Of a stretch of DNA of 64,000 bases, positions 1 through 15,314 are shown in pieces (the stretch's first letter is position 1; the number at the start of each line of letters is the position of its first letter). The notes beneath the pieces are model-generated. The model was not told where the DNA came from. It saw only the letters and a list, made by a program, of their open reading frames with translations, and did not search any database. The DNA comes from Burkholderiales bacterium. GTDB lineage: Bacteria; Pseudomonadota; Gammaproteobacteria; Burkholderiales; SG8-41. The DNA lies in assembly GCA_019749945.1 (NCBI GenBank), contig JAIEPF010000027.1, positions 1 to 64,000 of the forward strand, written 5' to 3'. Both the position numbers and the translations under genes were made by a program.

Positions 1-57
1 CTCAAACTCGGCTGTTGCCTCATCTGCTGGCGATCTCTCAAAACCGTATGATTTCAT
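1..57 (-). CDS. Possible 5' end of a gene running out of the window
   Basis: On the minus strand an ATG at position 57 opens a frame that stays open for all 19 codons to the window edge. The first residues read MKSYGFERSPAD. It would be the next gene after the four-helix-bundle gene in the same direction. I see no ribosome-binding site and do not recognise the protein. The fragment is too short to be sure it is coding. Confidence 0.25.
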   Translation of the reverse strand, partial: MKSYGFERSPADEATAEFE

Positions 58-71
58 TTTGTTAGGCGCTC

Positions 72-105
72 TAAGTGACTAGGTGATTAGGGGATTGGGT
101 CACTT
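72..105. repeat. Octamer repeat array A (GGTGATTA family)
   Basis: A short degenerate array with the units AGTGACTA and GGTGATTA. It starts inside the last codons of the four-helix-bundle gene, where the minus strand reads AGC AAG TGA, and runs to about 15 bases before the next possible start. It is the downstream partner of array B on the other side of that gene. Confidence 0.7.
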
Positions 106-450
106 GCTTAGGCTGCGGTGAAGTCCGGACAGCAGGCTGGATACTCTGTCTGCCTGCTGAAATATCTCATGTTTTCGGTCCAAATATCCCAGGTCAGCTG
201 AAATGAGAAGCTGTGTTTCCAATTCACTCAGTGACCCTTTGGCGATGCTGAGGAATTGCGCAAATTCTTTTTGCCCGGTCCGTGCAGCACCTTCTGCGAG
301 ATTGCTGGGTATGGACACCGCTGCGCGCCGCATCTGAGAGGTCAGGCCATACAACTCTTCCTTGAGGAAACCTTGCGTGATTTTGTAAATGCCGCTGACC
401 AGCTCCATTGCTGATTTCCACGCCTCGAGCTTGTAGTGCGACCGGCTCAT
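100..450 (-). CDS. Four-helix-bundle protein, S23 / 23S-rRNA-intervening-sequence family
   Basis: A 116-residue protein. It matches the S23-type four-helix-bundle family (PF05635/TIGR02436) in length and signature: an early LEAWKSAMELV helix, YGLTSQMRRAAVSIPSNLAEGAAR in the middle, and FLSIAKGSLSELETQL in the third helix. The family is known from intervening sequences in 23S rRNA and as free-standing genes, and resembles Avd, the accessory protein of diversity-generating retroelements. Its biochemical role is unclear. No reverse transcriptase or rRNA gene is present here. The gene lies between rfbB and the window edge and has GGTGATTA arrays at both ends. The stop codon and the last codons are part of array A, and array B begins 10 bases upstream of the start. 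Family assignment is firm; function is not. Confidence 0.85.
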   Translation of the reverse strand: MSRSHYKLEAWKSAMELVSGIYKITQGFLKEELYGLTSQMRRAAVSIPSNLAEGAARTGQKEFAQFLSIAKGSLSELETQLLISADLGYLDRKHEIFQQADRVSSLLSGLHRSLSK

Positions 451-460
451 AAAAACCCTT

Positions 461-552
461 GGTGATTAGGTGATTATAAGAGCGTGATTAAGTGATTGGC
501 GCGCGCCCATAGATTTAATCACCTAGTTACCTAATCACTTAATCACGCTTTT
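461..552. repeat. Octamer repeat array B, inverted arms
   Basis: Left arm GGTGATTAGGTGATTA followed by GCGTGATTAAGTGATT. The right arm holds the reverse complements, ending AATCACTTAATCACGC. The outer arms (about 478-497 and 533-552) pair over roughly 20 bp with one mismatch, around a GCGCGCGC-rich loop. The array fills the whole gap between the four-helix-bundle start (450) and the rfbB stop codon (551-553). Confidence 0.85.
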
Positions 553-1600
553 AGCCGTATTGCGTATCCACCCACTTCCGATACTCCCCACTCACCACGG
601 AATCCACCCATTCATGGTGCGCCAGATACCACTGCACGGTTTCACGCAGGCCAGCGGTGAAGGTCTTTTTGGGTTCCCAGCCGAGTTCGCGGCGGATTTT
701 TTCGGCGTTGATGGCGTAGCGGTGGTCGTGGCCCGGACGGTCTTTGACGAAAGTAATCAGCTTGGCGTGCGGCGAGCCGGCAGGATGTAATTCGTCAAGG
801 ATGGCGCAAACCGCATGCACTACTTCGAGGTTGGTTTTTTCGCTGTTGCCGCCGATGTTGTAGGTTTCGCCGGGCCGGCCGCGGGCCAGTGCGGCGCGAA
901 TGCCCGAGCAGTGATCGCCCACGTAGAGCCAGTCGCGCACGTTTTTGCCGTCGCCGTAGACCGGCAGCGGTTTGCCGTTCAGCGCGTTGAGGATCATCAG
1001 CGGGATCAGTTTTTCCGGGAACTGCAGCGGGCCGTAGTTGTTGGAGCAGTTGGTGGTGATGACCGGCAGGCCGTAGGTGTGGTGATAGGCGCGCACCAGA
1101 TGGTCGGAGGCGGCCTTGGATGCGGCGTACGGGCTGTTCGGCGCGTAGGGCGTGGTTTCACTGAACGCGGGATCGGTGCTGCCCAATGAACCATAAACCT
1201 CGTCGGTGGAGACATGCAAAAAGCGGAAGCGGCTTTTGGCCGGTTCGGCCAGCCTGCCCCAGTACGCGCGGGCTTCTTCGAGCAGGCTGAAGGTGCCGAC
1301 AACATTGGTCTGCACGAATTCGCCCGGGCCGTGGATCGAGCGGTCGACATGGCTTTCCGCGGCGAAATGCACGATGGCCTGTGGCTGATGCTGTTGCAGC
1401 AGGCTGGCGACCCGCGCGCGGTCGCAGATGTCGCCCTGCGCAAAGACATAACGGCTGTCGCCCTTCAGCGAGGCCAGGTTCGCCGGATTACCGGCGTAGG
1501 TCAGCTTGTCGAAACTGACGACCGGCGAGCCTTCGGTGGCTATCCAGTCGAGGACGAAGTTGGCGCCGATGAAGCCCGCGCCGCCGGTGACCAGGATCAA
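551..1600 (-). CDS. rfbB: dTDP-glucose 4,6-dehydratase
   Basis: A 349-residue extended short-chain dehydrogenase that converts dTDP-glucose to dTDP-4-keto-6-deoxyglucose, the second step of dTDP-rhamnose synthesis for O-antigen and other surface sugars. The NAD-binding motif TGGAGFIG is at residues 5-12. STDEVYG and the catalytic YAASK follow near residues 133 and 160, and DWLYVGDHC is the family signature near 225. The start is a TTG with a GGAG about 8 bases upstream; the Rossmann fold begins directly after it, so no earlier start is needed. The other rml genes are not in the window. They could lie on the far side of the four-helix-bundle cassette, but this cannot be seen. Confidence 0.95.
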
Positions 1601-1751
1601 GTGTATGTGCTCCGCTCGGGTCTGGGTCGCTGATGGGCTGGTGTTAAGGGGCCAGCGCTAACGGGTATCATCCTGATATTCCATCGGGCAGTGTTATCCT
1701 GCACCGCACAGCGACCGGATTTTTCAATAATAACATAGAGATACCGCGCAA

Positions 1752-2708
1752 ATGCCGCGCATCCTGCTGATCAAAACCTCTTCGCTGGGCGATGTCGTGC
1801 ACAACCTGCCAGTGGTCGCGGATATTGTCGCGGCGCTGCCCGATGTGACCATTGATTGGGTGGTTGAAGAGGCTTTTGCAGGGATTCCGCGTCTGCATCC
1901 GCGGGTGTCACGGGTGTTGCCGGTGGCCGTGCGGCGCTGGCGGCGCGCGTTATGGCATCCGGCGGTCTGGGGAGAGATACGCGCATTCTTCGGTCATTTG
2001 CGCGATCAGTCATACGATGCGGTGATCGATAGCCAGGGCTTGCTGAAAAGTGCATGGATCGCCGGCGTGGCGCGCGGTGTAAGCCACGGCCTGGATCGAG
2101 CAAGTTCGCGCGAGCCGCTGGGTTTGTTTTATGACCACAGGCATCCTGTGCCCTGGGGACAACATGCCGTCGAACGCAACCGCCAACTCGCTGCGCAGGC
2201 GCTGGGTTACACGGTATCTGCCCCGGTGCAGTACGGCATTTCAGCCGCAGCGCAGACTTTTGCCTGGCTGGATAACCGCCGGCCGCATGCAGTGCTGCTG
2301 CATGCCACCAGCGCCGACCGCAAATTGTGGCCGGAGGAGCGCTGGATCGCATTGGGTCAAGCACTGGCGGCGCAGGGCATCAGCAGCGTGTTGCCCTGGG
2401 GTACGGCGGCGGAACACGAACGCAGCCTGCGCCTGATGCAAAAAATTCCGCAGGCCGTCGTGCCCGAACGTCTGGATATCGCCGCACTGGCGGCCTTGCT
2501 GGCGCAGGCGCGTGTGGTCGTCGGCACCGACACCGGATTGACCCACCTCGCCGGCGCACTCGGGGTGCCGACCGTCGGTATTTACTGCGCGACCGATCCC
2601 GCGGCGACCGGCCTGTATGCCTGCGCGCGCGGCGTGAATTTGGGGGGTGTTGGTAAGGCGCCGGTGGTGGGTGAGGTGGTGGCGGCTGTTAAGAGTGTGA
2701 TTAAGTGA
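1752..2708 (+). CDS. waaC: LPS heptosyltransferase I
   Basis: A 318-residue glycosyltransferase family 9 enzyme that adds the first L-glycero-D-manno-heptose from ADP-heptose to Kdo2-lipid A at the inner face of the membrane. The N-terminus ILLIKTSSLGDVVHNLP is typical of WaaC. The donor-binding signature DTGLTHLAGALGVPTVGIY is near residues 260-278. It is followed by waaA, the other inner-core transferase, but the two are separated by a 190-bp octamer-repeat array. The last codons (SVIK and the stop TGA) are encoded by the first repeat units, so the array has supplied or replaced the native C-terminus. Confidence 0.95.
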   Translation: MPRILLIKTSSLGDVVHNLPVVADIVAALPDVTIDWVVEEAFAGIPRLHPRVSRVLPVAVRRWRRALWHPAVWGEIRAFFGHLRDQSYDAVIDSQGLLKSAWIAGVARGVSHGLDRASSREPLGLFYDHRHPVPWGQHAVERNRQLAAQALGYTVSAPVQYGISAAAQTFAWLDNRRPHAVLLHATSADRKLWPEERWIALGQALAAQGISSVLPWGTAAEHERSLRLMQKIPQAVVPERLDIAALAALLAQARVVVGTDTGLTHLAGALGVPTVGIYCATDPAATGLYACARGVNLGGVGKAPVVGEVVAAVKSVIK

Positions 2709-2883
2709 TTTGGTGACTAGGTGACTAGGTAATTAGGTGATTAGGTGATTAGGTGATTAGGTGATTAGGTGAGTGGATAATTAGGGGATTTGGCCATGAC
2801 AGAATGTCGGAAATTTTTCAATCACTTAATCACCTAATCACCTAGTCACTTAATTACTTAATGTCTTAATCACCTAATCACCA
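2693..2883. repeat. Octamer repeat array C, large inverted array
   Basis: This is the largest array. The forward arm (about 2696-2790) contains consecutive GGTGACTA, GGTGACTA, GGTAATTA and four exact GGTGATTA units. A unique loop (2791-2818) follows, then the reverse arm (2819-2882) with repeated TAATCACC. It starts inside the waaC stop codon and ends 7 bases before the waaA ATG, so it makes up the entire intergenic region. A transcript through it could form a long imperfect hairpin. Confidence 0.9.
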
Positions 2884-2889
2884 GAACCA

Positions 2890-4137
2890 ATGCGCTTCCT
2901 CTACACCTTTCTGTGGTACGTCGCGACGCCGCTGATCCTGCTGCGCCTCATGTGGCGCGCGCGCCGCCAGCGCGAGTATCTGCGGCATGTCGGGGAGCGG
3001 TTTGGTTTTTATGATGGCGCGGTTGTGCCTGGGCCGTTGTTGTGGGTGCATGCGGTGTCGGTTGGTGAAACCCGCGCTGCCGAACCATTGATCAATGTAT
3101 TGCAGCAGCGTTATCCGCAGCACCGCATTTTGCTCACGCACATGACGCCGACCGGACGCGAAACCGGCGTTGCATTGTTCGCTGATCGTGTGACGCGCTG
3201 TTATCTGCCGTACGACTATCCGGGTGCGGTGGCGCGGTTTCTGGGCCGTTTCAAGCCCGCCGCCGGCGTGCTGATGGAAACCGAAGTCTGGCCCAACCTG
3301 ATCCATGCTGCGGCAAACCGTGACATCCCGCTGTACCTGATCAATGCCCGTTTGTCGGAACGGTCCTTGCGCGGTTATCAGCGCAGCGGCGCGCTGGCGC
3401 GCGACGCGATACGCGGGTTTCGCGCGATTGCGGCGCAGTCGGCGGGGGATGCCGCGCGCCTGCAGACGCTGGGCGCGGAGCGGGTCAGTATCACCGGCAA
3501 TCTGAAATTTGATCTTGAAGTGCCGGCAGCCCAGATTGAACAGGGCAAGGCACTGCGCCTAGCGCTAGGCACACGACCGGTGTTGCTGGCGGCCAGTACG
3601 CGCGAGGGCGAAGAGGCTTTGTTGCTCGATGCCGCGCAGCGTGCCGGTTTGCGCGATGCCCTGCTGGTCATCGTGCCGCGGCATCCGCAGCGTTTCGATG
3701 AGGTGGCGGCGCTGATCACGGCGCGCGGACTGCGCCTGCAGCGGCGCAGCGCGGGAGAACCGGTCGCTGCCGATACCGCCGTGCTGCTCGGCGACAGCAT
3801 GGGCGAGATGTTCATCTACTACGCGGCTTGTGATGTGGTGCTGATGGGCGGCAGTTTCCTGTCCTATGGCGCGCACAGCCTGATCGAGCCCTGCGCGCTG
3901 GGCCGGCCGGTGATCATCGGGCCATCAACGTACAACTTTGCCGAAGCGGCGGCGGCGGCGGTTGCTGCCGGTGCTGCCATACGCGTCAATGACCTGGCGG
4001 AAGCGCTGACACGGGCACTGCAGCTTGCGGCAGATCCGCAGCGTGCTCAGCGCATGGGTGATGCGGGATTGGCATTTACAGCGGCACACCGCGGCGCGAC
4101 GCAGCGCGTGCTGGCCTTGCTGGACATCAGCAAGTAA
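2890..4137 (+). CDS. waaA: 3-deoxy-D-manno-octulosonic acid transferase (Kdo transferase)
   Basis: A 415-residue membrane-anchored GT30 enzyme that transfers Kdo from CMP-Kdo to lipid IVA. The N-terminal hydrophobic anchor (FLYTFLWYVATPLILL) and LLWVHAVSVGETRAA, with the catalytic glutamate near residue 60, are characteristic. Later signatures are TNLKFD-like GNLKFDL near 200 and the GGSF...GAHSLIEPCALGRPVI block near 320. No Shine-Dalgarno sequence is visible because octamer array C runs to 7 bases before the ATG. Translation may therefore depend on the array or on coupling from waaC. It converges on tolC. Confidence 0.95.
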   Translation: MRFLYTFLWYVATPLILLRLMWRARRQREYLRHVGERFGFYDGAVVPGPLLWVHAVSVGETRAAEPLINVLQQRYPQHRILLTHMTPTGRETGVALFADRVTRCYLPYDYPGAVARFLGRFKPAAGVLMETEVWPNLIHAAANRDIPLYLINARLSERSLRGYQRSGALARDAIRGFRAIAAQSAGDAARLQTLGAERVSITGNLKFDLEVPAAQIEQGKALRLALGTRPVLLAASTREGEEALLLDAAQRAGLRDALLVIVPRHPQRFDEVAALITARGLRLQRRSAGEPVAADTAVLLGDSMGEMFIYYAACDVVLMGGSFLSYGAHSLIEPCALGRPVIIGPSTYNFAEAAAAAVAAGAAIRVNDLAEALTRALQLAADPQRAQRMGDAGLAFTAAHRGATQRVLALLDISK

Positions 4138-4150
4138 TTGTTTTTATTGA
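4131..4150 (-). repeat. AT-rich junction motif, copy 1
   Basis: The minus strand carries AATAAAAACAATTACTTG, overlapping the waaA stop codon. It is one of eight copies of a motif with consensus AATAAAAACAATNRTTTAC, conspicuous in this GC-rich sequence. Confidence 0.55.
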
Positions 4151-4182
4151 ATATTATTGGCGCTCATCGAGCGCATGGAGCG

Positions 4183-5514
4183 TTATTTTTCGAGCCAGGC
4201 GTTGACGCGCTGCAGATCCGTTTCGCCGAGCTGGCCAGCGGCGGCCGTCAGCCGCAGCAGCGACAGGATGTAGTTGTAACGCGCCTGCGCCAGGTCGCGG
4301 CGCGCGCTGAACAACTGCTGCTGCGCATTGAGCACATCGACCTGGGTGCGCACGCCGACTTCCTGCCCGAGGCGCGTGGAATCGAGTGAACTCTGGCTCG
4401 ACACCAGCGCGGCCTCCAGAGCGCGCACCTGCGCGATGCCGCTGGTGACGCCAAGATAACCCTGGCGCGCCGCGAGTTCCGCGCTGCGCAGGGCGTTTTC
4501 CAGGTCCTGGCGCGCCTTGTCTTCGTTGGCGACGGCTTCGCGTACGCGGGAATTGACGACACCGCCCTGATACAGCGGAATCGCCAGCTGCAGGCCGATG
4601 ACCTTGGAACTGGTTTCGGTGCCGGACCCGCCTTGCACGCCGGATCCGGTTGCCGACTCCGTCACCGAGGCAAAGGCGTCGAGGGTGGGAAAATGGGCTC
4701 CGCGGTTGCGTTTGACGTCCTGCGCGGAAAAATTCAGGTTTTCGCGGGCGATGCGCACCGCCGGGCCGGCCGTGCGCGCCTGTTCCACCCATTGCTCCAT
4801 GGAAGACGGTGTCGGCGGCAGCGGCGCAAAACTTTTGCCCAGCGGCGCCAGTCCCGGGGCGGCGCGGCCGATCAGTTGTTCCAGTGCACGGTTTTTGACT
4901 TCCAGGTCGTTGCGCGCGGCGATTTCCTGTGAAGTGACCAGATCGTAACGGGCCTGCGCTTCATGGGTGTCGGTGATGGTGGCGTTGCCGACTTCGAAAT
5001 TGCGCCTGGCCTGTTCCAGTTGCTGGCCGATGGCGGTTTTCTGCGCCTGCACGAAAGCCACGTTGTCGCTGGCGAGCAGCACGTCGAAATAAGCCTGGGC
5101 GACACGCAGGATCAGGTCCTGGCTGGCGGAGGCCAGTTGCGCGTCGGCCAGCGCGACCTGTGTTTTGCCCTGATCGTAAGCGATAAAATTCTGCTGGCGA
5201 TAGATCGGCTGGGTGACCGAGACCGAGGCCGAATTCGAGTTGAATTGAGTGCGGCTGCCGGTGAGCGCCGGATCGCGGAAGCTCAGGTCGCGGTCGTTGT
5301 GCTGGGTCGATGCCGATAGGTTGGCCTGCGGCAGCAATCCGGCGCGGCCCTGCGGCAGCTTCTCCTGCGCGGCGGCCCAGCTTGCGCGTGCCGCGCTGTA
5401 GACCGGATCGGAGTCCCGCGCCGCGCGATAGATGTTCAGCAGATCCGCCGCGGCCACGGGCGGGCCGGCCAGCAGCGTGCAGGCAACGAAGGCACTGAAA
5501 AAAGCGCGACGCAT
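4183..5514 (-). CDS. tolC: TolC-family outer-membrane efflux protein
   Basis: A 443-residue outer-membrane channel of the TolC/type I secretion family. A signal peptide spans residues 1-23 (ending PPVAAA). Two homologous outer-membrane-efflux repeats follow: the first starts near LLNIYRAARDSDPVYSAAR, the second near VRIARENLNFSAQDVKRNRGAHFPTLD. The VSVTQPIYR and LQLAIPLYQGG segments mark the equivalent beta strands in each half. It forms the exit duct for tripartite pumps and could partner the MacAB-like system 4 kb away, though that is inference. It lies just downstream of pcm in the same direction (14-base gap), a common betaproteobacterial pairing. Confidence 0.92.
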   Translation of the reverse strand: MRRAFFSAFVACTLLAGPPVAAADLLNIYRAARDSDPVYSAARASWAAAQEKLPQGRAGLLPQANLSASTQHNDRDLSFRDPALTGSRTQFNSNSASVSVTQPIYRQQNFIAYDQGKTQVALADAQLASASQDLILRVAQAYFDVLLASDNVAFVQAQKTAIGQQLEQARRNFEVGNATITDTHEAQARYDLVTSQEIAARNDLEVKNRALEQLIGRAAPGLAPLGKSFAPLPPTPSSMEQWVEQARTAGPAVRIARENLNFSAQDVKRNRGAHFPTLDAFASVTESATGSGVQGGSGTETSSKVIGLQLAIPLYQGGVVNSRVREAVANEDKARQDLENALRSAELAARQGYLGVTSGIAQVRALEAALVSSQSSLDSTRLGQEVGVRTQVDVLNAQQQLFSARRDLAQARYNYILSLLRLTAAAGQLGETDLQRVNAWLEK

Positions 5515-5528
5515 GGCGATTCGACGCC

Positions 5529-6212
5529 TTAAAAGACGAAACGTTGCAATTGCAGGGCGTTTTTCAGCGGGGCCACGCAGGTTTCGAACAGGGTGACGGC
5601 GTTGCAGGCGCCGCCTTCGCTGCGGGTGACCAGTCGCGCCTGCATTGCCGGTGCGACACCGACCACGGCAAGCAGCCGGCCACCGGCATTGAGGCTTTGC
5701 TGGAAACTCTCGGGCAGCACCGGCACCGAGCCGGTGAGCAGGATGACGTCGTACGGGCCATGTCTGTCCCAGCCGCGCGCGGCGTCGCCGGTTTCCAGCG
5801 TGATGTTGCTGATGTGGTGCGCGGCGAGGCGTGTTGCGGCGCTGCGGGTGAATTCGGCAACGATATCCACGCTGTAGACATGGCGGCCGAGGCTGGCCAG
5901 CAGCGCCGTCATGTAGCCGCTGCCGGTGCCGATTTCGAGGATGCTATCGCTGCGCTGCACGCCGAGTTCCTGCAGCATGCGCGCTTCCAGTTTGGGCGAG
6001 AGCATGGTTTCGCCATGGCCCAGCGGGATTTCCATGTCGGCAAAGGCCAGCGCGCGATGTTGTTCCGGCACGAAGTCTTCGCGATGCAGGCGCATCAGCA
6101 GATCGAGCACCACCGGATCCAGCACTTCCCAGGGCCGGATCTGCTGCTCGACCATGTTGAAACGGGCGTGTTCGATATCCATGCGGGGCGCTGAATTGGC
6201 GGAAGAGTTCAT
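5529..6212 (-). CDS. pcm: Protein-L-isoaspartate O-methyltransferase family protein
   Basis: A 227-residue SAM-dependent methyltransferase. The PIMT-like N-terminus MVEQQIRPWEV is followed by GHGETMLSPKLEARMLQEL (substrate side) and the SAM motif ILEIGTGSGYMTALLA near residue 85. The family methylates isoaspartyl residues to start repair of aged proteins. This short beta-proteobacterial form may not have been tested. An upstream ATG at 6320 is in frame, but residues before MNSSANSAPRMD look non-coding and that start would reach into the riboswitch region, so 6212 is chosen; 6182 (MDIEHARF) is the alternative. It is divergent from thiC. Confidence 0.85.
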   Translation of the reverse strand: MNSSANSAPRMDIEHARFNMVEQQIRPWEVLDPVVLDLLMRLHREDFVPEQHRALAFADMEIPLGHGETMLSPKLEARMLQELGVQRSDSILEIGTGSGYMTALLASLGRHVYSVDIVAEFTRSAATRLAAHHISNITLETGDAARGWDRHGPYDVILLTGSVPVLPESFQQSLNAGGRLLAVVGVAPAMQARLVTRSEGGACNAVTLFETCVAPLKNALQLQRFVF

Positions 6213-6315
6213 GGCCGATAACTGCTTGTTGAAAAAGGGGAATTCGAGTCTTGAGCGTTGTTTGAAAAACGCCGCTGTTCGCTTGCAATTATCCCATAAT
6301 TCCATTAGCGTAAAC

Positions 6316-8376
<2,061 letters not shown>

Positions 8377-8451
8377 ACGCTGCCGGAGCGACCGCGCCGG
8401 TACACCGGCCGCATCCGCCGGCGTTAAACAGGACAGCACAGTGAGGTGACC

Positions 8452-8826
8452 ATGTTGCAGCGTACGTTGTTGATGGGGATGCTGGGTGCGATGTTGTCGC
8501 TGCCGGCGCAGGCCGCGGATGCGCTGCCGCCGCCGGCGCGCGCCGAGGTCCCGCCCGAACTGCGGCTGCTGTTGGGCGGCGTGGTCAGCGAGAACGATGT
8601 CAGCCAGCTGTTTGCCCACCTGCGCGCCTCGATGCGCGCAGCCGCCGAAGGCCGCCAGCCACCGCCGTTTCCGGAAGCGCTGGCCAAACGGCTGGAAGCG
8701 GCCGGCAGTGAATTGCAGCTGCGCGGCCTGGTCGCCGGCATGGCGCTGACCCAGTTTGTCGAACGCGCGGTCCTCGATGCCGTGCGTGAACTGGCGCCCC
8801 CCCCGGCATCGCGCGAGCGTTATTGA
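8452..8826 (+). CDS. Small exported protein of unknown function
   Basis: A 124-residue protein with a clear signal peptide (residues 1-22, cleaved near PAQAA-D). The mature part is proline- and alanine-rich, then amphipathic: ELRLLLGGVVSENDVSQLFAHLRASMRAAAEG, then LQLRGLVAGMALTQFVERAVLDAVREL. No cysteine and no recognised catalytic motif. A GTG two codons upstream is a weaker alternative; the ATG has GAGGT just before it. It sits between thiC and the macA-like gene in the same direction. It may be periplasmic, perhaps linked to the adaptor/ABC system, but this is only proximity. Confidence 0.6.
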   Translation: MLQRTLLMGMLGAMLSLPAQAADALPPPARAEVPPELRLLLGGVVSENDVSQLFAHLRASMRAAAEGRQPPPFPEALAKRLEAAGSELQLRGLVAGMALTQFVERAVLDAVRELAPPPASRERY

Positions 8827-8843
8827 GTCCCGACGGTCATTCC

Positions 8844-8862
8844 CGGGCTTGTCCCGAGCCCG
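8844..8862. repeat. Short palindrome upstream of macA
   Basis: CGGGCT and AGCCCG form a 6-bp stem around a 7-base loop, preceded by GTCATTC. This resembles the intergenic palindromes (GTCATTCCCGGGC type) scattered in many proteobacterial genomes. It could also terminate the preceding gene, but no T-run follows. Confidence 0.4.
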
Positions 8863-8901
8863 CTTTACTCCGTGGTATTCCCGTTTGGCATTGAGTCCAT
8901 C

Positions 8902-10485
8902 TTGAACAAGAAAATCACGCTGGTCGCCGGAGCGGCTGTGGCGCTGGTCATGGCCGGTGTCGCGTACTGGTATTTCGGCGGCGCGCCGGCGCAGCCGCCA
9001 TTCCGCCTCGCCAATATCGAGCGCGGCAACGTGGTGGCCGCGGTTTCGGCGACGGGCACCTTGAATCCGGTGGTGTCAGTACAGGTAGGCTCGCAGGTGT
9101 CCGGGCAGATCAAGGAAATTTTTGTCGATTACAACTCGGTGGTGAAAAAAGGCGATGTCATCGCCCGTATTGATCCCGAGTCCTTCGCGCTGCGCGTCAA
9201 CCAGGCGATGTCGGATCTGGAAGCCGCCCGCGCCACGGTGCTGACGCAGCGCGCCAATGTCGCGGCGCTGCAGGCTGAAGTGTCCCGCGCCCAGGTGGCA
9301 TTGGCCGAGGCCGAACGTGGCCTGAAGCGCAACCAGATGCTGGTCGAAAAAGGTTTTGTGTCGCAGGCCGCCCTGGAAACCTCGCAATCCGTGGTGGCCA
9401 CAGCCCGCGAACAGGTCAAAACCGCCGAGGCCCAGCGCGCGGTCGGTGATGCGCAGATCCGCAACGGCGAGGCGCTGGTCAGGCAGCGCGAATCGCAACT
9501 GGCGCAGGCCAAAGTCGATCTTGAACGCACGACCATCCGCGCGCCGGTGGACGGCATTGTCATTTCGCGCAGCGTCGATGCCGGCCAGACGGTTGCCGCC
9601 AGCCTGCAGGCGCCGGTGCTGTTCCTGATTGCGCGCAACCTGACCGACATGCAGGTCGAGGCTTCGATTGATGAATCCGAAATCGGCCGCATTGCCATCG
9701 GTCAGGATGCGACCTTCACCGTCGACTCATTCCCCGGCCGCACCTTCCGCGGCAAGATCACCCAGGTGCGCAAGGCCGCGCTGGTGGTGCAGAACGTGGT
9801 GACCTATGTCGCGATCATTTCCGCGCCCAATCCCGATCTGACCTTGTTGCCGGGCATGACCACCAATGTACGCATCACCGTCGCCAACCGCGACCAGGTG
9901 CTGCGCGTGCCCAACGCCGCCCTGCGTTATCGTCCGCCGGGTGCGGCTGTGCCGGCGAAGGGCGAGAAGGGGGCACAAAATGCGGGGGCACAAAAAGCGG
10001 GGGCACAAACGACAGATTCGCCCGCGGCGCCGGGCGGCGGCGGGCAGGCCCAGGCCACGCGTGAGCGCTTGACCAAAGAACTGGGACTCAATGCCGAGCA
10101 GCAGGCCAAGCTCGAGGCGATCCAGAAATCCACCGCGGAAAAAATCGCCGCGCTCAGTGTGGATGATCCTGCGCAGCGCAAAAAAGAAGCCGGCCGTTTG
10201 CGCGCGCAGTCGCGCACAGAGATTGCCGCGATCCTCAACGAAGACCAGCTGAAACGTTACGAAGCGCTGGCGGCCGAGCAGCGCGGCGTGGCAACGACAC
10301 GCGGCACGGTGTGGGTGCCCGACGGTTCGCGCGCGCCAAAATCGGTCAACGTACGCCTCGGCATCAGCGACGGGACGTTCACCGAACTGATCGGTGGCGA
10401 GTTGAAGGAAGGGGACGCGGTGATTGTGGGCGGTGGCGGTGCAAAGGCCGATGCCAAGGCTGCGCCTCCCCGCTTTGGTTTTTAA
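8902..10485 (+). CDS. macA: MacA-like periplasmic adaptor with Spy-like helical insert
   Basis: A membrane-fusion protein of about 527 residues. A single N-terminal anchor (ITLVAGAAVALVMAGVAYWYF) is followed by a lipoyl half-motif (VQVGSQVSGQIKEIFVDYNSVVKKGDVIARID), a long coiled-coil hairpin with 3-4 heptad-rich stretches, the second lipoyl half (TTIRAPVDGIVISRSVDAGQTV) and a beta-barrel domain. After VLRVPNAALRYRPPG the C-terminal domain is interrupted by about 110 residues: a GAQ-repeat linker, then helices LGLNAEQQAKLEAIQ and ILNEDQLKRYEALA that recall the LTxxQ repeats of Spy/CpxP. The barrel resumes at RGTVWVPDG. The start is uncertain: TTG at 8902 gives MNKKI; GTG at 8872 is the longer option. 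It is followed by the ABC ATPase and permease. Confidence 0.85.
   Translation: MNKKITLVAGAAVALVMAGVAYWYFGGAPAQPPFRLANIERGNVVAAVSATGTLNPVVSVQVGSQVSGQIKEIFVDYNSVVKKGDVIARIDPESFALRVNQAMSDLEAARATVLTQRANVAALQAEVSRAQVALAEAERGLKRNQMLVEKGFVSQAALETSQSVVATAREQVKTAEAQRAVGDAQIRNGEALVRQRESQLAQAKVDLERTTIRAPVDGIVISRSVDAGQTVAASLQAPVLFLIARNLTDMQVEASIDESEIGRIAIGQDATFTVDSFPGRTFRGKITQVRKAALVVQNVVTYVAIISAPNPDLTLLPGMTTNVRITVANRDQVLRVPNAALRYRPPGAAVPAKGEKGAQNAGAQKAGAQTTDSPAAPGGGGQAQATRERLTKELGLNAEQQAKLEAIQKSTAEKIAALSVDDPAQRKKEAGRLRAQSRTEIAAILNEDQLKRYEALAAEQRGVATTRGTVWVPDGSRAPKSVNVRLGISDGTFTELIGGELKEGDAVIVGGGGAKADAKAAPPRFGF
9969..10013. repeat. Three 15-bp in-frame repeats in macA
   Basis: Three consecutive units of GGGGGCACAAAANGC type, the third diverged at its end. 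They encode repeated GAQ-x-A in the linker before the Spy-like insert. The length of 15 bp keeps the frame, so copy number can change without breaking the gene. Confidence 0.85.
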
Positions 10486-10492
10486 AATTAAT

Positions 10493-10511
10493 AATAAAAA
10501 CAATGGTTTAC
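10493..10511 (+). repeat. AT-rich junction motif, copy 2
   Basis: AATAAAAACAATGGTTTAC, the best match to the consensus. It begins 8 bases after the macA stop and ends 35 bases before the macB-like ATPase start. Confidence 0.6.
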
Positions 10512-10546
10512 ATTAATACCCTGCACTGTCGGCCGGACGCTGTGCC

Positions 10547-11290
10547 ATGTCGACGCCGCTGATCACCACCCGGGAACTGGCCAAGTCCTATGCCCTGGGC
10601 GGCTTTACCGTGCAGGCGCTGCGCGGGGTGTCGGTCGATATCAGTGCGGGTGAATTTGTTGCAGTGATGGGGCCTTCTGGTTCCGGCAAATCGACCTTCA
10701 TGAATCTGCTCGGTTGCCTCGATACGCCCTCGGGCGGCGAATACCGGCTCGCCGGCGATCTGGTATCGGGTCTCGACAGCGACGCGCTGGCGGCGATCCG
10801 CAACCGGCGCATCGGGTTTGTGTTCCAGAGTTTCAATCTGCTGCCACGCACTTCGGCGCTGGAAAACATTGCGCTGCCGCTGCTCTATTGCGGCGTTGCC
10901 GGCGAAGAGCGCAACCGCCGCGCGGCGGCGCGCCTCGCCGAGGTCGGTCTCGCCGATCGCGGCCATCATCATCCGGCGCAGCTGTCGGGGGGCCAGCAGC
11001 AGCGCGTGGCGATCGCCCGCGCACTGGTCAATGACCCGGTGCTGATCCTGGCCGATGAACCGACCGGCGCGCTGGATACACTGACCAGTTGTGAAGTGAT
11101 GGCGCTGCTGCAGCAACTGAACGCGCGGGGCATGACGGTGGTGCTGGTGACCCATGAACACGACATTGCCGGGTTCGCCAGGCGCGTGATCACCTTCCGC
11201 GACGGCCGCGTGATCGAAGACCACGCGGTTGAACGGCCGAAGGATGCTGCGGCGCTGGCGGCGGAACTGCGTGCGGAGCAGCCTTCATGA
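10547..11290 (+). CDS. MacB/LolD-type ABC transporter ATP-binding protein
   Basis: A 247-residue ATPase. Walker A GPSGSGKST is at residues 42-50, the Q-loop lies in FVFQSFNLLPR, the signature LSGGQQQRVAIARAL is near 145, Walker B is ILADEPTGALD, and the H-loop is VTHEHD. The FVFQSFNLLPRTSALENIALPL segment is typical of the MacB/LolD/FtsE group. In E. coli MacB the ATPase and permease are fused; here they are two genes, and the permease start overlaps this stop (ATGA). Energises the adaptor/permease pair encoded either side. Confidence 0.93.
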   Translation: MSTPLITTRELAKSYALGGFTVQALRGVSVDISAGEFVAVMGPSGSGKSTFMNLLGCLDTPSGGEYRLAGDLVSGLDSDALAAIRNRRIGFVFQSFNLLPRTSALENIALPLLYCGVAGEERNRRAAARLAEVGLADRGHHHPAQLSGGQQQRVAIARALVNDPVLILADEPTGALDTLTSCEVMALLQQLNARGMTVVLVTHEHDIAGFARRVITFRDGRVIEDHAVERPKDAAALAAELRAEQPS

Positions 11291-12519
11291 ACGTGCTCGC
11301 CAGCATCCGCATCGCCTTGCGTGCGCTGCGTATCAACAAATTGCGCAGCGCACTGACCATGCTCGGCATCATCATCGGTGTTGCCGCGGTGATCACCATG
11401 ATTGCCGTCGGTTCCGGGGCGCAGACGCAGATCGAAGACCAGATCAGGGGCCTCGGCACCAACCTGATCATCCTGATGCCCGGCTCCAGCACCAGCGGCG
11501 GCGTGCGCATGGGCGCCGGCTCGCGCAACACGCTGACCGAGGAGGACGGTTATGCCATCCAGCGCGATGTGCCGGCCGTGCAGGCCGCGGCGCCGACGCT
11601 GCGCGGCACCGGCCAGGTGGTGGGCGGATCGGGCAACTGGTCAACCGTGTTCTACGGCGTGACCCCGGAGTATTTCGAGGCGCGCAACTGGGTGGTTGCG
11701 CAGGGCAAGGGTTTTGACGCGGCCGACATCGCCGGTTCGGCCAAGGTTGCGCTGCTCGGCGACACCGTCGCGCGCAACCTGTTCGGCGACACCGATCCGG
11801 TCGGACAGATCATCCGCATCCGCAAGGTGCCGTTCACCGTCATCGGCACGCTGGAGAAAAAGGGCCAGAGCCTGATGGGCCAGGACCAGGATGACGTGAT
11901 CCTGATGCCGATTTCGACCGCGCGCAACCGCGTGCTCGGACAGGGCGCCGGCCGCCTGCGCACCGTGGGTTCGGTATCGATCAAGGTGCGTGATGACGAG
12001 GACATGAAGGAGGCCGAGGCACAGATCCGTGAACTGCTGCGCCAGCGCCACCGCCTCCAGCCCGCTCAGGAAGATGACTTCACGCTGCGCAATCTGTCGG
12101 AAGTGCTGAGCGCGCGCGAGGAATCGAGCAAGATCATGGGTCTGCTGCTCGCGGCGGTTGCATCGGTGTCGCTGCTGGTCGGCGGCATCGGCATCATGAA
12201 CATCATGCTGGTGTCGGTGACCGAACGCACCCGCGAGATCGGCCTGCGCATGGCCGTGGGCGCGCGCGGACGCGACATCCTGACCCAGTTCCTGGTGGAG
12301 GCGATCACGCTGGCGCTGATCGGCGGCCTGCTCGGCATCGTGCTCGGGGTCGGCGGTTCGCTGGCGATCGGACGTTTTGTCGGATGGCCGATCCAGCTCG
12401 GCATCGAACCGGTGGCACTGGCCGTGGGCTTTTCCGCGGCGATCGGCATATTTTTCGGATTTTATCCGGCACGCAAGGCGTCGCGGCTGTTGCCGATCGA
12501 GGCGCTGCGATACGAGTGA
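11287..12519 (+). CDS. MacB-type ABC transporter permease
   Basis: A 410-residue permease with the MacB topology. One N-terminal transmembrane helix (ALTMLGIIIGVAAVITMIAVGSGA) is followed by a large periplasmic MacB_PCD domain (residues about 45-280). Three C-terminal transmembrane helices form the FtsX domain, starting at IMGLLLAAVASVSLLVGGIGIMNIM and containing the conserved VTERTREIGLRMAVGARG loop. It overlaps the ATPase gene by four bases. With the adaptor and an outer-membrane TolC it should form a tripartite exporter; the substrate cannot be told from the sequence. Confidence 0.93.
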   Translation: MNVLASIRIALRALRINKLRSALTMLGIIIGVAAVITMIAVGSGAQTQIEDQIRGLGTNLIILMPGSSTSGGVRMGAGSRNTLTEEDGYAIQRDVPAVQAAAPTLRGTGQVVGGSGNWSTVFYGVTPEYFEARNWVVAQGKGFDAADIAGSAKVALLGDTVARNLFGDTDPVGQIIRIRKVPFTVIGTLEKKGQSLMGQDQDDVILMPISTARNRVLGQGAGRLRTVGSVSIKVRDDEDMKEAEAQIRELLRQRHRLQPAQEDDFTLRNLSEVLSAREESSKIMGLLLAAVASVSLLVGGIGIMNIMLVSVTERTREIGLRMAVGARGRDILTQFLVEAITLALIGGLLGIVLGVGGSLAIGRFVGWPIQLGIEPVALAVGFSAAIGIFFGFYPARKASRLLPIEALRYE

Positions 12520-12529
12520 CTTTAATACT

Positions 12530-12612
12530 GGTGATTAGGTGATTGCGGTGAAGATTCCCGGGTTTAATCACCTAATCACCTAATCACCTAATCACCTAGT
12601 CACTGAATCACT
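12530..12612. repeat. Octamer repeat array D, inverted arms
   Basis: A short forward arm (GGTGATTAGGTGATT, 12530-12545), a loop with CCCGGG, then a longer reverse arm with four TAATCACC/CTAATCACC units and degenerate CTAGTCAC. It sits between the permease stop and the cysNC-like start, ending 16 bases before the ATG. Confidence 0.88.
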
Positions 12613-12628
12613 ACAGTAAACTCCTGCA

Positions 12629-14428
12629 ATGGATCCCCTCGAATCCGAAGCCATCGAAACCCTGCACCTGGTCATCTGCGGCGGTGTGGGCGAGGGCAAG
12701 TCGACGCTGATCGGCCGCCTGCTGCATGAATCGAAGAATATTGTCGATGATGCGTCAACGGCGCCGGCGGCCGATGGTTTGCAGGCTGAACGCGGGCAAG
12801 GCCCCGCCATTGATGGGGCATGCCGCTTTTTCGCCACCGGCCGCCGTCGTTACCTCGTGGTCGATACGCCGGAACACGAGCAGTACACCCGCAACATGGC
12901 CGCCGGCGCGTCAAGCGCGCGACTGGCGATACTGCTGGTCGATGCGGGCAAAGGCGTGCTGACCCAGACCCGCCGCCACAGTCGCATCATGGCGATGATG
13001 GGCATACGTCACGCGGTGCTTGCGGTGAACAAAATGGATCTGGTCGGATTTGACCCCGCGGTGTTCGCAAAAATTGAAACGACCTGCCGCGACTTTGTGC
13101 ATGACCAGGGTTTTTCGACCCTGCAGGCCATACCGCTGTCGGCGCTGGAGGGCGACAACATTCTTGACCCGGGCACGCGCATGCCCTGGTACGCGGGGCC
13201 GACGCTGCTGCAATATCTGGACGGCGTCTCGGTGTCGGCGCCGGCCGCTGCGCGCCGGGGCTTCCGCATGCCGGTGCAGCAGGTGAGCCGGGACGGGGCG
13301 GATGTTCGCGGTTATTGCGGACGCATTGCTGAAGGTGTCGTGCGTCCGGGTGACCGCATCTGCGTGTTGCCCTCGGCGCGAACCAGTGTGGTCAGGGACA
13401 TCATGGCCGGGCGGGGAGAAACCGGTGATGCGGTGACGCTGACGCTGGCGGATGAACTGGACATCAGCCAGGGTGACGTGATCGTGGCGGCGGATCGGCC
13501 GGCGGAAGTCGCCGACCAGTTTGAAGCCCGCTTGTTGTGGATGGCGGAACAACCGCTGCTGCCGGGCCGGCCTTATTTGCTGAAACTCCATGCCAAGGAA
13601 GTCACGGCGACCATCACCGCGATCAAATACCGGGAGGACGTCAATACCGGCGCGCATCTGGCCGCAAAGACGCTGGAGCAGAATGCGATTGCTGTGGTCA
13701 ATCTGTCGACCAGCGAGCCGGTGGTGTTTGAACCCTACGCGCTCAATCGCATCCTCGGCGGTTTCATCCTGAGCGACAGGCGGAATTTCCGGACGGTCGG
13801 CGCCGGAATGATCGAGTTTGCGCTGCGCCGCGCGTCAAACATCCATCCCCAGGCGCTGGAAATCAACAAGGCCGCGCGTGCGGCCCTGCTGCGGCAAATG
13901 CCGCGCTGCATCTGGTTCACCGGCCTGTCGGGGTCGGGGAAATCAACCATCGCCAACCTGCTCGAAAAGCGCTTGCATGCGCAGGGTCTGGCCACATACC
14001 TGCTCGACGGCGACAACCTGCGACATGGACTCAATCGCGATCTGGGCTTTACCGAGGCCGACCGCGTGGAAAACATCCGCCGCGTCGCGGAAGTGGCGAA
14101 ACTGATGGTGGACGCGGGCATGGTGGTGCTGGTGTCGTTCATTTCACCCTTCGCCGCGGAGCGCCGCATGGCGCGCACACTGTTCGAAGAGGGCGAGTTT
14201 ATCGAGGTGTTTGTCGATACGCCGCTGGCGGAATGCGAGCGCCGCGATGCCAAGGGTTTGTATGCCAAGGCGCGTGCCGGCAGGCTGAAAAACTTCACCG
14301 GCATCGACAGTGCTTACGAGGCGCCCGAGTCACCCGATATCCATCTGCATCCTGATGCGTTCAGCGCCGAGGCCTGCGCGGATCTGGTGGCGCGCATGCT
14401 GGTTCGTCCGCCGGCCAGCAACAGTTAG
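12629..14428 (+). CDS. cysNC: CysN-CysC-like fusion: degenerate sulfate adenylyltransferase GTPase plus APS kinase
   Basis: A 599-residue protein. Residues 1-210 align with the CysN GTPase, 210-415 with its beta-barrel domains, and 420-599 with CysC. The C-terminal APS kinase looks intact: P-loop GLSGSGKST near 432, [15 protein letters not shown], and [13 protein letters not shown]. In the GTPase half the P-loop (GGVGEGKST, 18-26) and NKMD are kept. Switch I GITID is GPAID (58-62), so the magnesium-binding threonine is lost. The DTPG of G3 is DTPE (79-82), and about 17 residues are missing after the P-loop. No cysD neighbour is present, though CysN normally works with CysD. APS kinase activity is likely; GTP-driven ATP sulfurylase activity is doubtful. 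No ribosome-binding site is evident downstream of array D. Confidence 0.85.
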
Positions 14429-14450: not shown

Positions 14451-15266
14451 ATGGACGCCGCGCTCGCCCTCAAAGCCCTGATCCTGGGCATCGTCGAAGG
14501 TCTCACCGAATTTCTGCCGGTATCAAGCACCGGCCACCTGATCATCGCCGGCAGTCTGCTCGGCTTCAACGATGAAAAGGGCAAGGTGTTCGAACTGGTG
14601 ATCCAGACCGGCGCGATGCTGGCGGTGTGCTGGGAATTCCGCGCGCGTTTTTTTGGCGTGTTGCGCGGCCTGGCGACGGATGCGACGGCGCAGGGTTTTG
14701 TGCTGAACCTGATCGCCGCCTTCATGCCCGCCGCGGTCATCGGGCTGGCGCTGGGCTCGCTGATCAAGGCCCATCTGTTTCACGCGGTGCCGGTGGCGGT
14801 TGCGCTGATCCTCGGCGGCTTCGTGATCCTGTGGGTGGAGCGGCGCGAACGCCCGGTGCGCATCGCGGACGTCGACCGCATGACCTGGCGCGATGCGCTG
14901 AAAGTCGGCTTTGCCCAGGCCGCGGCGCTGATCCCCGGCGTGTCGCGCTCCGGGGCCACCATCATCGGCGGCATGCTGTTCGGACTGTCACGCCGCGCCG
15001 CGACGGAGTTTTCGTTTTTCCTCGCGGTGCCGACGTTGATGGCCGCCGGCGCCTACGACCTCTACAAAAACCGCGCGATGTTGTCGGCCGACGATATCGG
15101 CTTGTTCGGCATCGGCATTGTGACCGCGTTTTTTTCGGCTTTCATCTGCATCCGCTGGCTGATGCGTTATGTGGCCACGCATGATTTCCGCGTGTTTGCC
15201 TGGTACCGCATCGGTTTCGGTTTGTTCATCCTGGTCAGCGCCTATACCGGCATCATTCGCTGGTGA
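14451..15266 (+). CDS. uppP: Undecaprenyl-diphosphatase
   Basis: A 271-residue integral membrane phosphatase (BacA family) that recycles undecaprenyl pyrophosphate to the monophosphate carrier for peptidoglycan and LPS synthesis. The two signatures are present: [15 protein letters not shown] near residue 14 and [14 protein letters not shown] near 163, both facing the periplasm. Seven to eight hydrophobic segments. It starts 22 bases after cysNC and may be cotranscribed. Its stop codon TGA lies in the first unit of heptamer array E. Confidence 0.96.
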
Positions 15267-15314
15267 CGGGTGACGGGTGACTGGTGACTGGTGATTGGTA
15301 ACTGGTAATTGGTG
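15262..15314. repeat. Heptamer repeat array E (GGTGACT family)
   Basis: Seven adjacent 7-bp units: GGTGACG twice, GGTGACT twice, GGTGATT, GGTAACT and GGTAATT. It begins in the last codon and stop of uppP and ends four bases before the rhodanese stop codon on the other strand. No facing inverted arm, unlike arrays B-D. Confidence 0.88.

Follow-up and report, generated by a model that had tools for sequence, protein, structure and literature searches.

An S23 four-helix-bundle gene between inverted arms of short tandem repeats: a probable small mobile element built like the intervening sequences of 23S rRNA

Introduction

REPIN/RAYT and MITE elements are small, palindromic, non-autonomous elements dispersed in the genome, and the STRR heptamers of cyanobacteria are dispersed repeats comparable to the arrays described here. 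In Xanthomonas, one report describes GGGAATC heptamers that are dispersed and mostly intergenic, have relatives in Nostoc, form 70 inverted pairs in Xcc and 75 in Xac, and generally have no association with mobile elements (PMC4692102); the terms 'S23', 'four helix' and 'XCC0516' do not occur in its text. The TAACTGA repeats of Beggiatoaceae are described as dispersed intergenic heptamers, nearly all direct and one inverted, for which a repeat-binding protein was suggested as the mobile part (PMC4679880); that text contains neither 'four helix' nor '23S rRNA'.

The intervening sequences (IVSs) of 23S rRNA carry an S23-family open reading frame (ORF) in the loop of a 28-bp stem of terminal inverted repeats, which is cut by RNase III, and tandem heptamers in strain-dependent number lie just upstream of this ORF. 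S23 ORF and heptamers are in this way linked inside one rRNA element, which the same source terms selfish, citing older proposals that IVSs are mobile or are remnants of transposition (PMC4990558). The S23 family, PF05635, is also described as resembling Avd of diversity-generating retroelements (PMC10053308). Among the matches listed for the open PMC literature, judged by titles and abstract openings, no paper ties S23 genes to dispersed heptamers.

Here an S23 gene is described that lies between octamer arrays in a 64,000-nucleotide stretch of DNA (the window) from a Burkholderiales bacterium, whose genome assembly (G000) comprises 3.59 Mb in 40 contigs and is 95.8% complete. S23 elements of this kind share with the IVS the S23 ORF, the terminal inverted repeats and the heptamers near the ORF, as described in PMC4990558, and differ from it in lying at mRNA gene junctions, in having two-sided arms built of tandem arrays and in having dispersed gene-free copies. 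The GGGAATC repeats are alike in that their unit also occurs in an S23 arm from Xanthomonas. The TAACTGA repeats are equally dispersed intergenic heptamers, but nearly all of those are direct, whereas the arms here are inverted. Unlike REPIN/RAYT and MITE elements, the arms are tandem heptamers or octamers, and their presumed partner is S23 rather than a Y1 transposase. The block at 72–547 is probably a small mobile element made of S23 and inverted arms, with gene-free derivatives and an IVS-like build. The preliminary description of the locus, which took gene and arrays for a candidate mobile cassette, is partly supported overall.

The S23 block and its protein

The features of the window discussed below are:

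1–71, no strand: tail of another multi-copy repeat (terminus CATTTTGTTAGGCGCT), at the contig start and abutting array A
74–97, plus strand: array A, three octamer units; the downstream (minus) arm in gene orientation
100–450, minus strand: S23 (PF05635) four-helix-bundle gene, 116 aa
461–498, plus strand: array B, two blocks of octamer units a few bases apart
499–515, no strand: spacer from array B to array C
516–547, minus strand: array C, minus-strand units; the upstream (plus) arm in gene orientation
2693–2883, no strand: gene-free inverted octamer arrays, flanked by ORFs read as waaC and waaA
12530–12612, no strand: gene-free inverted octamer arrays
15260–15314, plus strand: one-sided heptamer array (GGTGACTGGTGATTGG type) of the same repeat class

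The exact octamer GGTGATTA occurs 17 times in the window (at 82–89, 461–523, 2736–2882 and 12530–12596) against 0.47 expected, a number reached in none of 100 shuffles, and its arrays stand on both sides of the S23 gene, as the preliminary description had it. Array B does begin 10 bases from the start codon; array A, by contrast, had been credited with supplying the stop codon, and the stop TGA (100–102) falls two bases outside the called units (74–97). Read in gene orientation the order is plus arm, spacer, minus arm, gene, minus arm, and arrays B (plus units) and C (minus units) form a separate inverted pair like those at 2693–2883 and 12530–12612. Array C ends three bases from the stop codon (551–553) of the next ORF, read as rmlB. 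Since window position 1 is the contig start, the left side of the block is cut, and this copy was left out of the arm scoring below as lying too near the contig end.

An S23 ORF between terminal inverted repeats is the arrangement of the 23S rRNA IVS, and the window copy has it outside a 23S rRNA gene: it adjoins the rmlB-like ORF, and Rfam gave no rRNA in window 1–13500. PF05635 is the one recognisable gene in the block, which contains no transposase gene of its own. The CATTTTGTTAGGCGCT terminus to its left has 30 matches in the genome against 2 for a reversed control, and adjoins an array at another locus (L038) too. This repeat is multi-copy and lies near the ends of several contigs; its inverted pairs, at a separation of 141 bp (C14, C15 and C26), resemble small palindromic elements, and an ORF with the opening MKSYGFERSPADEATAEFE begins inside it.

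In profile searches the window protein scores 124.6 bits against PF05635 (cut-off 33.8) and 120.8 bits against TIGR02436 (cut-off 24). Its AlphaFold model is a confident helical bundle (pLDDT 96), for which the top Foldseek matches are 2GSC (TM 0.95) and 2RLD. The S23 gene is under purifying selection, with dN/dS of 0.00–0.21 in all 17 pairs computed; one member of this set (L098) carries an internal stop, and for two pairs the synonymous distance is above 1.

Inverted arms at S23 genes across bacteria

The genome has four PF05635 genes, each between inverted short-period arms of differing unit. Besides the window copy these are a gene on C27 with arms of unit GGTGAACG (25 nt, 96% complementary), one on C33 with AGTGATG (30 nt, 83% complementary) and one on C21 with GGTGAGC/GGTAAGC (14 nt, 86%), where the arms are weak (arm score 10). 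No octamer array was found near these three, and an octamer-specific cassette was rejected because they have other units. PF05635 genes without flanking arrays had been named as the observation that would tell against the cassette; this applies to the octamer, which all three lack, but not to arrays generally, since inverted arms of other units are present, weakly so on C21.

Across G000 and 40 relatives there are 38 PF05635 matches in 16 of the 41 genomes, and 34 of 200 genomes of the phylum have PF05635 above the cut-off; flanks were read for 27 loci of the relatives and 29 of the phylum. From a scan of genome contigs the best 80 of 586 confirmed loci were kept (14 phylum labels in the tree), and flanks were read for 30 of these 80, chosen from high and low scores. 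The arms were scored by local alignment of the upstream flank with the reverse-complemented downstream flank, which gave scores for 135 of 140 loci. The median was 16 for own pairs (n = 135) and 8 for mismatched pairs (n = 405), whose 95th and 99th percentiles were 12 and 14; own pairs exceeded the former in 90 and the latter in 77 of the 135 cases, leaving 45 S23 loci that fail the 95th-percentile threshold. Scores above 12 were reached by 86 of 128 S23 genes against 3 of 81 neighbouring genes (p about 1e-22), loci that are not independent because orthologues are included in the scored set; one locus entered the survey twice (L101 and L166).

In the 84 loci with a score of at least 14 the arm period is 7 in 49, 8 in 6 and uncalled in 29, so that every called locus (55 of 84) has a period of 7 or 8; 77 of the 84 show G skew in the upstream arm, and in 74 this arm is rich in purines. 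A gene was found on both sides of S23 at 110 loci. The two neighbours are co-directional at 79 of these, and S23 is in sense with them in 76 of the 79 (binomial p 3e-19). At some loci the repeats beside S23 score higher as direct than as inverted repeats (L172, direct 57 and inverted 7; L188, direct 38 and inverted 8).

At one site, represented by the orthologous loci L004, L114 and L116, the unit differs from locus to locus and yet both arms agree. Similar arms at different sites are rare in the genus (5 of 28 pairs at 65–80% protein identity, 23 of 703 at 55–65%), and most S23 genes within the genus look vertically inherited at fixed sites. A tree of 79 S23 rows has 27 changes of phylum label against a minimum of 13, with 42 of its 76 inner branches open, a resolution too weak to prove transfer between phyla.

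Gene-free arrays, empty sites and filled sites

Two octamers in tandem (GGTGATTAGGTGATTA, at most 2 mismatches) have 99 matches genome-wide and none with a reversed control; by the author's count, the 99 fall in about 30 places. A script called 25 clusters outside the S23 block, each with at least three units; two of these clusters are overlapping contig ends that look like one place. Both orientations occur in 17 of the 25, laid out as plus array, short spacer and minus array. The heptamer form has 44 matches beside the 99 of the octamer form, and the class consists of dispersed intergenic tandem repeats in the manner of the STRR heptamers. The preliminary claims that the octamer occurs without the gene at 2693–2883 and 12530–12612 (both hold exact GGTGATTA), that the arrays behave as a dispersed element and that gene-bearing and gene-free forms coexist were all borne out.

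The array at 2693–2883 provides the last codons and the stop of the upstream ORF, which ends at 2708. Window 2690–2890 is predicted to fold into a long stem (−96.7 kcal/mol, z = −11.5); the predicted fold is weak for the whole window S23 element (z = −2.0) and has z = −3.4 for the C27 element. Enrichment between co-directional genes is not significant for the gene-free arrays (17 of 22 against 198 of 330, p = 0.12). A TPP riboswitch aptamer (RF00059, 59.2 bits) was found at 6315–6429 on the plus strand of the window.

With gene names that are the author's reading of translations, 16 rmlB-type loci of the genus were read. S23 is directly next in L149 (the window's own), L150, L153 and L156; rmlA is next, and S23 absent, in L155, L159, L160, L161, L163 and L164, with a stop/start overlap in four of the six, L163 and L164 being second rmlB copies (65–66% identity). 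In L152, a deleted derivative, inverted heptamer arrays enclose a truncated S23 remnant, and in L151, L154, L157, L158 and L165 the rmlB-type gene is followed by other genes. The waaC/waaA junction abuts or overlaps, without an array, in six of seven readable relatives (L150, L155, L156, L159, L160 and L162); the seventh, G006, has the array in a different length. Empty sites in relatives, for which the preliminary description proposed to look, are present both at rmlB-type loci and at the junction of the 2693–2883 array. They point to gain, with precise loss as an alternative. Wherever both flanks of a G006 array site could be placed in G000, G000 also has an array, which dates these insertions to before the split of the two genomes. 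In the G006 orthologue of 12530–12612 (L252) the spacer is, on the author's reading, inverted relative to its flanks.

Movement on cyanobacterial plasmids

A search of 72,556 plasmid records gave PF05635-type genes in 28, of which at least 21 are cyanobacterial. All ten plasmid loci read have inverted heptamer arms, with scores of 15–31 against a mismatched control that is inflated (95th percentile 23) because units are common to these loci. Plasmids pC052_D of Nostoc sp. C052 (L359) and pNsp_c of ATCC 53789 (L360) have a common backbone (91–99% identity). An S23 element with GTCAGGA arms occupies in L359 a junction that measures three bases in L360, and in the adjacent junction L360 has an S23 element with GGGGAAA-type arms where L359 has a stop/start overlap. 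The L359 element, of 416 bp, is matched end to end in six records (its own and two of Trichormus included; 77.6–100% identity), and a Scytonema match spans 96% of its length. In Aulosira and Trichormus the flanks (1.2 kb per side) have no DNA similarity to the Nostoc flanks past the arms, short matches apart. Internally deleted copies of the same element lie on pC052_A and pC052_E (L367 and L368).

Gene-free forms are found at new places too. On pNPM1 (L365:1431–1612) a 182-bp gene-free element interrupts the S23 ORF of a copy that is 97.7% identical apart from this insertion, and carries the same heptamer unit as that copy. The 182-bp element occurs at 98 places in 43 plasmid records (Nostocales), with a match over at least 80% of its length at 28 of the places, and has a strong predicted fold (z = −8.5) with a structured core inside heptamer arms. 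The features of an insertion sequence or DNA transposon, an own transposase and a target site duplication, were not found: at most 0–1 nt is duplicated at the 182-bp insertion, and no duplication is convincing at the Nostoc junctions.

Movement of the S23 element as a unit on cyanobacterial plasmids is well supported. The marks of a mobile element, empty and filled sites and one element in differing surroundings, were seen in relatives rather than for the window copy, so the mobile cassette of the preliminary description is shown on the plasmids rather than for the window copy itself, which fits a mobile S23 element of the plasmid type. S23 genes also lie inside plasmid CRISPR operons (L353, L356 and L372), at the cas6/cas4 junction in Pseudanabaena and Anabaena with differing arm units, and at the cas10/cmr2–cmr3 junction in Picosynechococcus; in L352, on a Nostoc plasmid, an antisense S23 gene lies between two ribonucleotide reductase subunit genes.

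Which genes accompany the arrays

Array counts in the genus cover the two commonest units. Summed, these reach 1, 4, 11, 30, 87, 130, 143, 144, 181 and 537 in ten PF05635-bearing genomes, and 0, 0, 0, 0, 0, 1, 1, 7, 12, 80 and 105 in eleven genomes without PF05635, a difference with p = 0.0025 over 21 genus genomes (G000 included) when kinship is ignored. In genomes at least 90% complete the association is weaker (p = 0.015 for the sum, 0.069 for the octamer alone). The co-occurrence of arrays and PF05635, for which the preliminary description proposed a test, does not extend to every genome: there are 80 array matches in G007 (100% complete, 8% contaminated) and 105 in G004 (79% complete), and neither has a PF05635 match. 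The PF05635-bearing genomes G010 and G013 have 1 and 4 array matches. De novo searches gave 22 arrays in 400 kb of G000, which hold one inverted pair under a strict rule, and 3 arrays in 331 kb of G016, a genome with no PF05635 match; in the S23-bearing genomes G111 and G243 (200 kb each) they gave 0 and 7, none of the S23 arm unit. Two GGGAATC units in tandem (at most 1 mismatch) have 393 matches in the Xanthomonas genome that carries L204, a locus with GGGAATC in its short S23 arm (score 14); in 15 other S23-bearing genomes the matches number 0–6.

Y1 transposase genes are present in 10 of the 21 genus genomes, with 3 matches in G000, and do not track array counts as a REPIN/RAYT system would have it (p = 0.23): G020, G007 and G004 are array-rich without a Y1 match, and G016, G015 and G005 have Y1 and no array match. 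On this result a Y1 transposase was set aside as the main driver. Reverse transcriptase does not track the arrays either (p = 0.78). Phage carriage as the usual route was set aside as weak: tblastn found no S23 match in 50,697 phage records; viral contigs gave 22 S23 matches, 15 of them with an arm score above 12, some being near-copies on contigs that may hold host DNA. PADLOC gave no match.

Interpretation

The preferred reading pictures the element as an S23 gene whose inverted arms repeat a short unit in tandem (usually 7 nt, here 8). It would insert at gene junctions, mostly in sense to the operon, and would be transcribed with the host operon. In the RNA the arms could then pair and enclose the S23 message in a stem like that of the 23S rRNA IVSs, and RNase III may cut this mRNA stem. 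Gene-free inverted arrays would be copies that keep these arms but are non-autonomous, through internal deletion or otherwise. The S23 protein may recognise the arms and help to move them, with a host enzyme presumably doing the chemistry. This driving role for S23 is inferred: two array-rich genomes of the genus show no S23 match, and 45 of the 135 loci do not exceed the threshold.

It is conceivable, though unlikely, that the arms themselves are the mobile part, as hairpins that a different machinery (a Y1/HUH transposase, or replication) moves, with S23 as an often trapped passenger. The gene-free forms outnumber the gene-bearing ones, the core of the 182-bp Nostoc element is itself structured and this element inserted with 0–1 nt duplicated, as HUH elements do, Y1 genes are present in almost half of the genus genomes and in G000 itself, and G007 and G004 have arrays and no PF05635 match. 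Against it stand the recurrence of S23 with inverted arms in many phyla and with unrelated units, the purifying selection on S23 and its mostly sense orientation, and array counts that do not follow Y1.

More doubtful still is the proposal that S23 is a resident operon gene whose arms expanded locally through slippage while template switching maintained their complementarity, with no mobility of an element. It would suit the sites common to members of the genus, the dominance of vertical inheritance and the change of unit with agreeing arms at L004, L114 and L116. The reciprocal empty and filled sites on the Nostoc plasmids, the 416-bp element in unrelated surroundings and the 182-bp insertion speak against it for the plasmid copies, as does, in the genus, a gene-free array at a position where six of seven relatives have the two genes closely joined.

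It is highly improbable that S23 works with a reverse transcriptase in the manner of Avd, in a diversity-generating or other retroelement. In favour, the shared four-helix-bundle fold gives weak, non-significant Foldseek matches to Avd chains (8ube_D, TM 0.61, E 0.13; 4dwl_B, TM 0.63, E 0.51); against, RVT_1 has no match in G000, on which ground this partner was rejected, nor in the array-rich G004, G006, G014, G018, G019 and G020, and one match in the array-rich G007.

Returning to the mobile S23 element, a wider version of it seems possible rather than probable. S23 genes with inverted heptamer arms may form a bacteria-wide class of mobile elements with a mobility protein that is not a transposase, of which the IVSs would be landings in rRNA and the dispersed heptamers of cyanobacteria, xanthomonads and others the gene-free debris. 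Scattered heptamer repeats and S23 proteins both lack an accepted explanation in the literature cited here, and the tie between them offers a candidate origin for short repeats scattered through many genomes and gives a protein family whose structures are solved (2GSC and 2RLD) a role that can be tested. The 23S rRNA IVSs could then be seen as one of the places where a more widespread mobile element lands. Arms that switch unit between relatives and yet stay complementary represent an unusual kind of evolution, which could be traced in strain collections.
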